Source of the DNA: Methanolobus zinderi
Lineage (GTDB): Archaea; Halobacteriota; Methanosarcinia; Methanosarcinales; Methanosarcinaceae
Reading direction: 5' to 3'
NCBI RefSeq assembly: GCF_013388255.1
Contig: NZ_CP058215.1
Span: 434,001 to 498,000 of the forward strand
Length of the DNA stretch: 64,000 nucleotides
This document shows, piece after piece, positions 30,867 to 34,559 of the stretch (its first letter is position 1; the number at the start of each line of letters is the position of its first letter). Both the position numbers and the translations under genes were made by a program. A model generated the notes under the pieces. The model did not search any database and was not told where the DNA came from. It saw only the letters and a program-made list of their open reading frames with translations.

Positions 30867-32030
30867 TCACTCGTACCTGAGCGCATCCAGTGGTTTCATC
30901 CTTGAGGCCTTCCATGCAGGATACATTCCGCCAAGCAGGCTCGTACCCACTCCGAAGAAGACTCCTTCCAGGATATAGATAATGTTAGAGAACTTCAGTA
31001 TGTAGGCTGAATCGTCCATAATGAAGGAGATTATCATATAACTGCCTCCAAGGGTCAGCAAACCGCCTATAAGGCTTGCGGCAACTCCCAGGAAGAGTGC
31101 TTCCAGCAGGAACATTTTCAGTATATCCTTTCTGGATGCGCCCACCGCCTTCATGACTCCTATTTCCTTGGTACGCTCCATGGTAGACATGAGCATAACA
31201 TTCAGGATACTGACGCCGGCCACAAGCAGGGAAATTGAACCGATACCCATGAGGAAAAGCGAGATTGCGTCAAAGACACTGTCGATACTTTCGGTAATCA
31301 TATTGGTGGCAAAGACTGTTATGAGCTCATCTTTCCTGTTGATCCTGTCCTCGATGTCCTGCTGGACGGTTTCCAGTTCATTGATGTCATCGACTGTTAT
31401 TATTGTCGAGCTGTACCCTTCGTCTTCATCCGGGTAGAGTTTTTCATACATCTCGGAAGAAGTGAATATCCCGCTGTCAGTATCGATATCAAAACCGAGT
31501 CCCCGTTCCTTTAGAATGCCGACGACCCTCAGTTTGGAATCATCAATCACTATTTTGCTGCCGACACTGATCTCCAGGTTTTCAGCCACACTTGAACCGA
31601 CAACACAATCTGTGGAGCCGGATTTGAAATATCGACCTTCATCAAGCTCGGCAAGGCTCTCCAGTCCCTCTTCTTTAATATCGTAGACCGAAGCAAAGCT
31701 CTCTTCGTTCTTATATTCCACTCTTTCCCCGTGGGATCTGAGAGGGATTATCTCGTCAATACCGGCTACCTTTCTGATCTGGTCGATCTGCTTCTCGGTT
31801 ATTGATTCCTCTCCGGGTGCGGGGTATATCATGAGCTTGTCACCGACATCCGCAAAGGAATCGGTAACGGACAGTTTCATGGTATTACCCAGTATGCCCA
31901 TGGAGGAAATCGCGATGACTCCTATGATTATACCTATGGCTGCAAGTATTGTCCGGATGGACTGCCGTTTGAGATTTCTTCTGGCAAGCTCGGCATACAT
32001 GTTATTTTTCAGGGGATCAGCAATTCTCAT
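30867..32030 (-). CDS. MacB-type ABC transporter permease (cassette C)
   Basis: 388 residues: N-terminal helix (SIRTILAAIGIIIGVIAISS), MacB periplasmic-core-like extracellular domain (about 45-265), three C-terminal helices and the coupling segment MERTKEIGVMKAVGASRKDI, ending PAWKASRMKPLDALRYE. Start ATG 32030 lies inside the upstream ATPase gene (14-bp overlap) with GGTGAT upstream, so translation is coupled. A GTG at 32033 is the alternative. Together with the ATPase (32017) and the COG1361 protein (32725), it forms a complete type VII transporter. It is more distant in sequence from the permeases at 36758, 37980 and 41308 than those are from each other. Confidence 0.93.
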   Translation of the reverse strand: MRIADPLKNNMYAELARRNLKRQSIRTILAAIGIIIGVIAISSMGILGNTMKLSVTDSFADVGDKLMIYPAPGEESITEKQIDQIRKVAGIDEIIPLRSHGERVEYKNEESFASVYDIKEEGLESLAELDEGRYFKSGSTDCVVGSSVAENLEISVGSKIVIDDSKLRVVGILKERGLGFDIDTDSGIFTSSEMYEKLYPDEDEGYSSTIITVDDINELETVQQDIEDRINRKDELITVFATNMITESIDSVFDAISLFLMGIGSISLLVAGVSILNVMLMSTMERTKEIGVMKAVGASRKDILKMFLLEALFLGVAASLIGGLLTLGGSYMIISFIMDDSAYILKFSNIIYILEGVFFGVGTSLLGGMYPAWKASRMKPLDALRYE

Positions 32031-32703
32031 CACATATCACCCCGTCCTGCAGCCTTATGGTTGTATTTGAGAAATCCTCAAGCTTTGGATCGTGTGTTAC
32101 AACGATAACCGTCGTTCCTGCACTATTTAGCTCCTGCAGGAGTTTCATTACACTGTTTCCTGTTTTGGAATCAAGGTTTCCGGTAGGTTCATCGGCAAGC
32201 AGGATTGGAGGGTCATTTGCCAGCGCCCTTGCTATTGCCACTCTCTGCTGCTGACCGCCGGAGAGTTCGTTGGGCTTGTGCTCTTCGTATTCCGGAGGCA
32301 GTTGTGCCCTTTCGAAAAGTCTCATTGCCTTTTTCCTGCGCTTTTCCGGAGATGTGCCATTGAATAACATGGGCATTTCCACGTTCTCAAGGGCAGTTAG
32401 TGTCTGGATGAGGTTGAACTGCTGGAATATGAACCCGATGTTGTTGCGTCTGATCGATGTTAGTCCGTTGTCATCCAGTTTCGAGATGTCCGTGCCGTTT
32501 ATCAGGATCTTACCGCTTGTGGGCAGATCAAGACAGCCGACCATATTTAGAAGTGTGCTCTTTCCCGAGCCCGATGATCCCATTATTGTGACAAAGTCTC
32601 CTTCTTCAATGGAAATGTTCACCTTGTTCAGGGCGTATATTTTGTTCTTCCCGAGGGTGTAGATCTTTGTCACATCTCTGAGTTCTACAATGGGTTCTGG
32701 CAT
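32017..32703 (-). CDS. MacB-type ABC transporter ATP-binding protein (cassette C)
   Basis: 228 residues. Walker [14 protein letters not shown]-loop FIFQQFNLIQTL, signature LSGGQQQRVAIARALA, Walker [17 protein letters not shown] and the switch histidine in VVTHDPKL, all intact. MacB/LolD class by its LDSKTG and FNLIQTLTALENVEMP segments. It energises the overlapping permease gene. The ATG has CGGTG upstream and lies 21 bp after the COG1361 gene stop. Confidence 0.95.
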   Translation of the reverse strand: MPEPIVELRDVTKIYTLGKNKIYALNKVNISIEEGDFVTIMGSSGSGKSTLLNMVGCLDLPTSGKILINGTDISKLDDNGLTSIRRNNIGFIFQQFNLIQTLTALENVEMPMLFNGTSPEKRRKKAMRLFERAQLPPEYEEHKPNELSGGQQQRVAIARALANDPPILLADEPTGNLDSKTGNSVMKLLQELNSAGTTVIVVTHDPKLEDFSNTTIRLQDGVICDENC

Positions 32704-32724: not shown

Positions 32725-33933
32725 TTATTCCCCGGAGGGCTCAATTTCTTCGTCTTCGAAAGCTTCTGCCTCGTCCCTGCGCTTTTTCCATGAATATCCG
32801 ATCAGTGCCACAATGGCAATTGCAAATATTCCTGCAACGGCCCAGAGCGCCAGGGAACTTCCGCTATCTTCCTCGCTGTTACCTGCAAAAACCTGCTGTC
32901 CGTCTATAGCGATATTCTCTTCAATGGAAATGTAGGCATTATCAGGGTCTCTGAACTCTATCAAAACCGGGATACTGGAGACATCCCCTGACAGTACACT
33001 TGCCGAGAGTTCAAAACTGCTGAAGTCATCAGCTTCAAGGGTTCCGATAAAATACTTTGCGTAGGGCTGGACCGGAACAACTGACTCCGACTTTGGGATT
33101 GATACGATGACATTCTTTGCATCGGTTGTCCCGAAGTTGTTGAGATCTCCTGAGAATGTGTACTTGTTACCGCTTTTTTCCATCTCTATGGAGGTAAATA
33201 TAAGCGAGTTCTGGTCTATGATGTCAACCTGTCTTGTGGTCTTTCCGGCATTGTGGAAGTTATCTCCGTTGAAATAGGATACAGTAAAAGATACGTTGCT
33301 GGTCTCTGAATCGGAGTTCATCGTATTCATGAAAAAAGTCGCTGTTGACTTATTTCCTCCCGGGATGGCACCGATGAATACTTCAGAGGGACTGAAGACA
33401 ATACCCTCTGCCTCGGGACTAACAATCACACTATTTACTTCATTCGGTCTCTGATTCACTACTTCTACATTCACAGAAGATACTTCGTTCATCAGGGTGG
33501 ACGGCAGGTCGGATATGATAAGCTTCAGGTCCCTGTCATCTATCTTTACGGGTATCCTGGAATTGAAGTCATACGCAGTACTCCCACCGGTAATTTCAAG
33601 GTCAAGGAAATGAACTCCATTAGGTGCATCATCTTTGGCCTTTACGTTGAACGTAAGCTCAAGTGTGTCTCCAGGTCCTACAAGACCTACATCCGTATAG
33701 CTTTCTCCAAGTATTTCAATAACCTCATTCCCCTCAATTGCTGCATTGGCAATATATGCATTCTTTTGCATTGTTATCGTTATAGTCCCGGTATCTCCGG
33801 GCATCAGGACTTCAGGTTCCATTGAATAGCTCAGTGTGACCGCCGGTGTTATCTCAGTATCTGCAAGAGCAAAAGAGGAACAGGCAGCCAGAATCAAAAA
33901 GGCTGCCATGATAGTTTTTACAATCGTTTTCAA
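32725..33933 (-). CDS. COG1361-type extracellular protein with C-terminal anchor (cassette C)
   Basis: 402 residues: signal peptide (about 1-24), beta-sandwich repeats of the COG1361/NEW3 type (MEPEVLMPGDTGTITITMQK, NGVHFLDLEITGGSTAYDFN, VSFTVSYFNGDNFHNAGKT), one C-terminal transmembrane helix (ALWAVAGIFAIAIVALIGYS) and a cytoplasmic KKRRDE...-acidic tail. The same architecture occurs in the two rightward cassettes, always next to a MacB ATPase. It could serve as the extracellular adaptor, taking the place MacA has in bacteria (inference). The start is TTG 33933, whose bases overlap the TGA that ends the read-through Yip1 frame; GGTG lies 8 nt upstream, inside that frame. Confidence 0.85.
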   Translation of the reverse strand: MKTIVKTIMAAFLILAACSSFALADTEITPAVTLSYSMEPEVLMPGDTGTITITMQKNAYIANAAIEGNEVIEILGESYTDVGLVGPGDTLELTFNVKAKDDAPNGVHFLDLEITGGSTAYDFNSRIPVKIDDRDLKLIISDLPSTLMNEVSSVNVEVVNQRPNEVNSVIVSPEAEGIVFSPSEVFIGAIPGGNKSTATFFMNTMNSDSETSNVSFTVSYFNGDNFHNAGKTTRQVDIIDQNSLIFTSIEMEKSGNKYTFSGDLNNFGTTDAKNVIVSIPKSESVVPVQPYAKYFIGTLEADDFSSFELSASVLSGDVSSIPVLIEFRDPDNAYISIEENIAIDGQQVFAGNSEEDSGSSLALWAVAGIFAIAIVALIGYSWKKRRDEAEAFEDEEIEPSGE

Positions 33934-34559
33934 ATTAATGCACCGAATATTCTCAATTGGTATAGTGTATAAAGGATGTATATTATGATAGGTACTCCCA
34001 CGGTGATTGCCGCATCTTTAACGGACAGATTCCTGGAATGTACCATTGCGAATATCCAGATGTTTGCACTCTATAGTAAAAACAGTATCCCTATGATTCC
34101 AGATATCTGCAGGGAAGGGTCGGATAAGAGTGCTTCCTGCAGAAGCTGGGGATCCTGAGTCGACCAGTCGATATTTGAATATACCCTGGTAGTGAAATAG
34201 GTGCCTATCAAAGAGCTTGCTATTGAAGGTATGAATCCGTAGGATACGAACTCAAGTACCTTTTTAAAGTCGCCTTCACCGTTGAATACCATTGATATCA
34301 GGTAGAATATTCCACTATAGATCACCCACATGACAAAGGCCACAAAAAAAGCAACAATTGCTCCAATAGCTGCTCCGATTCCTGCAAAAGCTGCAGCTTC
34401 TTCCGGCAATGCTCCCATGACCCCTTGTGCAATTATAAAAGCACTGGCTGCTGATATGATAGCTAATATAGCTATTATTATCAACGGAGTCTTAAATTCA
34501 ACTTTCTGATCACTTCTTTTCTTGAAAAACCCATTCGGGTCAGTAAGTACTTCCAGCAT
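33930..34559 (-). CDS. Yip1-family membrane protein with in-frame UAG (read-through likely)
   Basis: The frame from ATG 34559 encodes 162 residues (MLEVLTDPNGFF..., helices around LIIIAILAIISAASAFIIA and VAFFVAFVMWVIYSGIFYLI), then meets TAG at 34073-34071 inside what should be the next transmembrane helix (SGIIGILFLL-stop). Beyond it the same frame continues without interruption for 46 residues: SANIWIFAMVHSRNLSVKDA, then AITVGVPIIIYILYTLYQLR, and ends at TGA 33932-33930. That extension supplies the remaining helices of a Yip1 protein, and its TGA overlaps the next gene's start. Full product 209 residues. UAG might be read as pyrrolysine, known in this family; alternatively the gene is a recent nonsense mutant. 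Role unknown; it heads the cassette C operon. Confidence 0.7.

Follow-up and report, generated by a model that had tools for sequence, protein, structure and literature searches.

An in-frame amber codon in the Yip1 gene of Methanolobus zinderi: a probable recent nonsense change in an archaeon equipped for pyrrolysine

Introduction

What does an in-frame UAG signify when it falls inside a conserved non-methyltransferase gene of an archaeon that can use pyrrolysine? The question is raised by the Yip1-domain gene of Methanolobus zinderi, located in a window of 64,000 nucleotides (the whole stretch analyzed here, positions 434001-498000 of a single-contig genome of 2,704,953 bases that is 99.96% complete). 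This open reading frame (ORF; 34559-33930, minus strand, ATG start) is the sole Yip1 gene of the genome and carries a TAG at codon 163 (34073-34071, minus strand). An original prediction, made from the window alone, proposed that either pyrrolysine is inserted at this codon or a very recent nonsense change has occurred, and read the intact frame and coupled gene overlap beyond it as signs of maintained readthrough. Reviews describe UAG as a codon that acts both as sense and as stop in pyl-bearing archaea, with no element required (PMC2933860, PMC6471195, PMC9499178).

Results

The Yip1 frame on both sides of the amber codon

The TAG directly follows the residues ...GIIGILFLL, and the same frame runs on for 46 codons (33933-34070, minus strand) to a TGA at 33932-33930, the 210th codon and natural end of the full-length frame. 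If UAG terminates, the predicted product is limited to codons 1-162 (34074-34559, minus strand). Searched with the Pfam model PF04893, residues 1-162 alone score 67.3 bits, compared to 82.5 bits (gathering cut-off, 28.6) with the TAG read as a residue, and the end of the match moves from residue 159 to residue 197. Since the score rises and the match lengthens through the TAG, the extension is genuine coding sequence, in line with the membrane-type continuation originally proposed. A structure model (predicted local distance difference test score, 90.9) likewise agrees with the proposal that the TAG interrupts a transmembrane helix at its center: residue 163 is placed midway along helix 148-175. 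The second half of this helix, together with helix 180-201, is encoded by the 46 codons, whose homology is to the C-terminal end of Yip1. Because the Pfam domain extends across the TAG, a stop there cuts a conserved domain, as in a pseudogene, and would remove half of the first helix and all of the second.

Codon 163 in Yip1 orthologues

A Pfam model search identified Yip1 matches in 25 of 27 genomes of the genus, M. zinderi included. Rather than ending at residue 162, orthologues within the genus extend to full length (about 204-209 residues counted from a conserved MLEV/MLQV start), and every one that could be read has TGG (Trp) at the aligned codon and reaches the same C-terminus. Leucine occupies the aligned codon only in a distant paralogous group. 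In an alignment of 36 archaeal orthologues, in which the TAG of the window was entered as W, the motif W163-S-A-N-I-W-x-F (WSANIWIF) is invariant; sequences from beyond the genus were in part collected by means of a pattern derived from the Trp motif, so their count is biased, whereas the genus set, obtained with the Pfam model, is unbiased. Across the 27 genus genomes and 80 further loci (the latter biased toward Trp), TAG at codon 163 is private to M. zinderi. Judged by its Yip1 gene, M. zinderi is closest to Methanolobus sp. UBA118 (90%), followed by M. halotolerans (80%).

Because all readable genus orthologues have TGG, the codon derives from a single G-to-A transition, the step from tryptophan that the original prediction had envisaged. 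UAG is not conserved across the Yip1 orthologues, as it would be at a functional pyrrolysine of the MtmB, MtbB or MttB type; an in-frame UAG inside a conserved frame, with homologues one step away in a sense codon, is instead the pattern associated with drift.

Pyrrolysine decoding machinery

All 27 genus genomes carry pylS. In M. zinderi, pylS, pylB, pylC and pylD are contiguous and adjoin an mtbB gene with an in-frame TAG (apart from PylS, these pyl gene names were assigned from sequence similarity by eye). A pylT gene was not found beside pylS by ARAGORN or short patterns; a stem-loop scan and BLAST with a known tRNA located it about 16.6 kb away (G000:C1:182840-182911), with a CTA anticodon, an encoded CCA and 93% identity to the Methanosarcina tRNA. 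The tRNA-Sec family search returned only matches to other tRNAs, below the cut-off. In the genome sample, in-frame TAG also occurs at the known motifs of one mttB, two mtmB and another mtbB gene, all of them recognized by eye. Since pylT, pylS, pylBCD and in-frame-TAG methyltransferase genes are present, UAG is predicted to be readable as pyrrolysine in this genome, as had been suggested from the window.

The pylS gene extends from G000:C1:199485 onward (L047:3986-5329), apart from pylT. The distance between pylT and pylSBCD is about 6-88 kb in M. zinderi and in the 14 other genus genomes with both on one contig, so their separation looks genus-wide in Methanolobus; an uninterrupted pylTSBCD cluster is given in a review as the rule in Methanosarcinaceae (PMC9499178).

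Disruption of Yip1 in related species

In the sister species UBA118, Yip1 has TGG at codon 163 but is cut by TAA at codon 139 (L048:106-735); in M. vulcani PL 12/M, its frame shifts by one base near residue 95 (L101:3001-3628). Both genomes retain the downstream gene. Two genus genomes lack the whole cassette, having neither Yip1 nor the COG1361 orthologue. The COG1361 orthologues found in the genus are all free of internal stops (25/25). The TAA of UBA118 comes from a metagenome assembly, and draft or metagenome errors are possible in both UBA118 and PL 12/M. From the TAA, the frameshift and the two missing cassettes, the Yip1 gene appears to be dispensable. Furthermore, the TAA and the frameshift are beyond rescue by pyrrolysine, so the TAG is most simply seen against a background in which Yip1 is lost repeatedly while the operon is kept. 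A Yip1 frameshift was also observed in a metagenome-assembled genome of Methanococcoides (L076:3001-3587).

These disruptions bear on plain loss of function, in which decay of the gene would have begun with the TAG and pyrrolysine readthrough would be irrelevant, the protein being unneeded or non-functional. The independent breakage of Yip1 by TAA and by frameshift, the absent cassettes, the invariance of the affected Trp and the truncation inside a transmembrane helix all suit this explanation. The gene so far shows neither a second lesion nor a sign of relaxed selection, and the only two clear interruptions found in the M. zinderi genome sample (see below) are both TAG, although this would happen about 1 in 10 times by chance. 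On balance we regard plain loss as possible but rather unlikely.

Age of the amber codon and the overlap with the next gene

Compared to UBA118, the ratio of non-synonymous to synonymous substitution rates (dN/dS) of Yip1 is 0.14 overall, 0.16 in codons 1-138 and 0.13 after codon 163, similar to the 0.17 of the intact downstream COG1361 gene. Besides the nonsense change, parsimony assigns to the M. zinderi lineage 9 substitutions in Yip1 that are non-synonymous and 9 that are synonymous. The comparison with UBA118 thus shows no further lesion and no relaxed selection in Yip1, a result that is uninformative if the TAG is very recent. This lack of a decay signature suggests that the TAG is recent, and since it appears young, the intact 3' frame needs no selection for readthrough.

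The TGA of Yip1 shares two bases with the TTG start (33933-33931) of the downstream gene, which encodes a 402-residue COG1361-type secreted or membrane protein (32725-33933, minus strand), and a GGTG (33944-33941, minus strand) lies within the Yip1 extension, 7 nt 5' of this TTG, a spacing that suggests a Shine-Dalgarno-like role. The coordinates confirm this part of the original prediction; the maintained readthrough deduced from it does not follow. The two-base overlap is common to M. zinderi and UBA118 and absent in most species, where the Yip1 stop lies just before the next start. Because the Yip1 gene of UBA118, itself cut by TAA, also has the overlap, the arrangement is no evidence of maintained readthrough; it is older than the TAG, and its survival reflects recency rather than selection. 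Two more genes belong to the same operon, encoding an ATP-binding cassette (ABC) transporter ATPase (32017-32703, minus strand; Walker motifs identified by eye) and a MacB/FtsX-like ABC permease (30867-32033, minus strand; identified by eye).

UAG as a terminator and the search for recoding signals

Codon statistics were obtained from a 1.2 Mb sample of the M. zinderi genome with a simple codon-usage gene caller. Among 1042 predicted ORFs, TGA is used as the stop in 47%, TAA in 43.5% and TAG in 9.4% (98 ORFs); in the relative G004 the TAG share is 10.4%. Coding scores of the extensions could not distinguish readthrough from a following gene in the same frame, and the crossing of the stop by homology was used instead. 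Of the TAG-ending ORFs, 71 have a homologue in a 1.2 Mb portion of G004; in Yip1 and a DUF4878-like gene homology continues past the TAG, and in the other 69 it does not. Only 2 of 717 ORFs ending in TAA or TGA are crossed, both by weak and gapped matches that we regard as spurious. The reverse comparison, from G004, returned the same two TAGs together with three TAA cases, which look like artefacts of the upstream start region rather than interrupted genes. The sample therefore contains two clear in-frame interruptions of conserved genes, both TAG and none TAA or TGA. This is suggestive of a better tolerance of TAG, but, given the chance expectation noted above for three equally likely stops, we do not rely on it.

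A genome-wide reassignment of TAG to pyrrolysine was rejected, as TAG ends 9.4% of the ORFs in the sample and nearly all of these are real stops. Archaea using TAG solely for pyrrolysine have reportedly been described in a recent paper; the M. zinderi genome does not fit that description.

The same comparison addresses sequencing or assembly error, in which the true codon would be TGG. A single base separates the TAG from the TGG found in all readable genus orthologues, as such an error would require. The genome is nevertheless a single, nearly complete contig, there are no convincing TAA or TGA interruptions among the 788 genes of the sample with a homologue, indicating that random substitution errors are rare, and a second, unrelated TAG interruption exists. 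We consider an error improbable.

A structured, PYLIS-like element, an aid to pyrrolysine insertion rather than a requirement for it, was not found 3' of the Yip1 TAG, where the predicted fold has a z-score of -1.1 (-1.10) against shuffled sequences; in the control, the region downstream of the mtbB TAG, it is -2.4. Selected recoding, in which pyrrolysine at residue 163 or a methylamine-dependent choice between short and long Yip1 would have a function, could draw on the pyl machinery, on the frame kept intact past the TAG and on an operon encoding an ABC transporter whose expression might be coupled to it. Nevertheless, besides lacking a downstream structure, the TAG occurs in no relative, the Trp is otherwise invariant and relatives have lost Yip1 in ways that pyrrolysine could not repair. 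We judge selected recoding very improbable. Its specific form as a conditional switch is the least probable of the readings considered: methylamines would induce the pyl system and so allow complete Yip1, bearing pyrrolysine within a transmembrane helix, and a truncated form would be made otherwise. If true, this would let translation carry on into the coupled COG1361-ABC genes and tie envelope transport to methylamine use.

A second interrupted gene and a permease pair

The second non-methyltransferase gene with an in-frame TAG, the DUF4878-like gene (G000:C1:1063645-1064073, minus strand; L181:3645-4073), carries it at codon 114 (E114), followed by 28 conserved codons. At the aligned position UBA118 has GAG (Glu), and most other sequences have Pro. 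Because the residue at this site varies, the gene is a better candidate than Yip1 for harmless insertion of pyrrolysine.

A permease gene pair, of a phosphate-type ABC transporter as judged by eye, is present in two copies (G000:C1:689915-691660 and 826554-828299) with equal lengths and scores and with TAG ends followed in frame by the next gene, an apparent recent duplication.

Discussion

Taken together, these data indicate that the Yip1 TAG is probably a recent nonsense change in a dispensable gene, with most translation ending at residue 162 and part of it reading through with pyrrolysine. A single recent G-to-A transition in the M. zinderi lineage turned the TGG of Trp163 into TAG, and the presence of tRNA-Pyl, PylRS and pyrrolysine biosynthesis would make this UAG ambiguous. 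We infer that release factor and Pyl-tRNA compete at the codon with no dedicated signal; the majority of ribosomes would probably stop, giving a 162-residue protein that ends halfway through a transmembrane helix, and a minority may insert pyrrolysine, giving a 209-residue protein. The mutation may be effectively neutral, tolerated because Yip1 is dispensable and possibly with the help of partial readthrough. Both branches of the original proposal, pyrrolysine and recent nonsense change, are thus compatible with the pyl set and with a recent transition, but a functional pyrrolysine is unsupported, since the Trp is invariant, UAG is an ordinary terminator elsewhere and two congeners have the gene broken by TAA or frameshift.

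Several points weigh against this explanation. Readthrough in Methanolobus may be almost nil, for example when methylamines are absent, or it may be efficient. As Trp163 is invariant in the 36 archaeal orthologues, a protein with pyrrolysine in its place may not work, which would favor plain loss. Finally, a base error in the assembly is possible at codon 163, and the UBA118 TAA is subject to the caution attached to metagenome assemblies.

The proposed partial readthrough has precedents. As reported in two reviews (PMC2933860, PMC6471195), an amber codon introduced into uidA is read through at 20-30% in M. acetivorans, independently of context, and Thg1, the tRNA-His guanylyltransferase of Methanosarcina acetivorans, came to contain pyrrolysine through neutral evolution (Heinemann et al. 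2009, cited in both). In a bacterial case, decoding of UAG as pyrrolysine can hinge on whether cells grow on trimethylamine (PMC8211752). In both Thg1 and Yip1 the frame continues intact past the UAG. In Thg1, however, pyrrolysine has been physically observed, whereas Yip1 is known here from sequence; moreover, in Yip1 the UAG replaces an otherwise invariant Trp of a transmembrane helix, and relatives have disrupted copies of the gene. MtmB, MtbB and MttB likewise have an in-frame TAG served by the same pyl system, and are present in M. zinderi, but nearly all of their orthologues share the TAG and their pyrrolysine is catalytic, in contrast with the Yip1 TAG, private to one genome.

A survey of in-frame UAG in pyl-bearing organisms, which attributed such codons to neutral drift (PMC3639795), lists drift-type clusters, transposases and TetR proteins that, like Yip1, have UAG in otherwise normal genes. 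Its clusters needed relatives or paralogues sharing the UAG, and Yip1 would have escaped it. The archaeal Yip1-like proteins of COG2881/pfam04893 (arCOG02054, PMC5898192) belong to the same family, with 4-5 helices and adjoining genes for ABC transporters and surface proteins; the M. zinderi gene differs from them in its interruption by TAG. The Yip1 codon represents a known kind of evolutionary drift, not a new mechanism.

In annotation, the Yip1 gene should be neither fused nor split without protein evidence. As a clean, natural and testable case of UAG ambiguity among archaea that use pyrrolysine, the locus combines the single-step conversion of an invariant Trp codon to amber with damage to the same gene in sister species, where the lesions are of kinds that pyrrolysine could not repair. 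If no full-length product is found, the pyl machinery would not save ordinary nonsense alleles; if one is found, membrane proteins would join the short list of non-methyltransferase proteins containing pyrrolysine.
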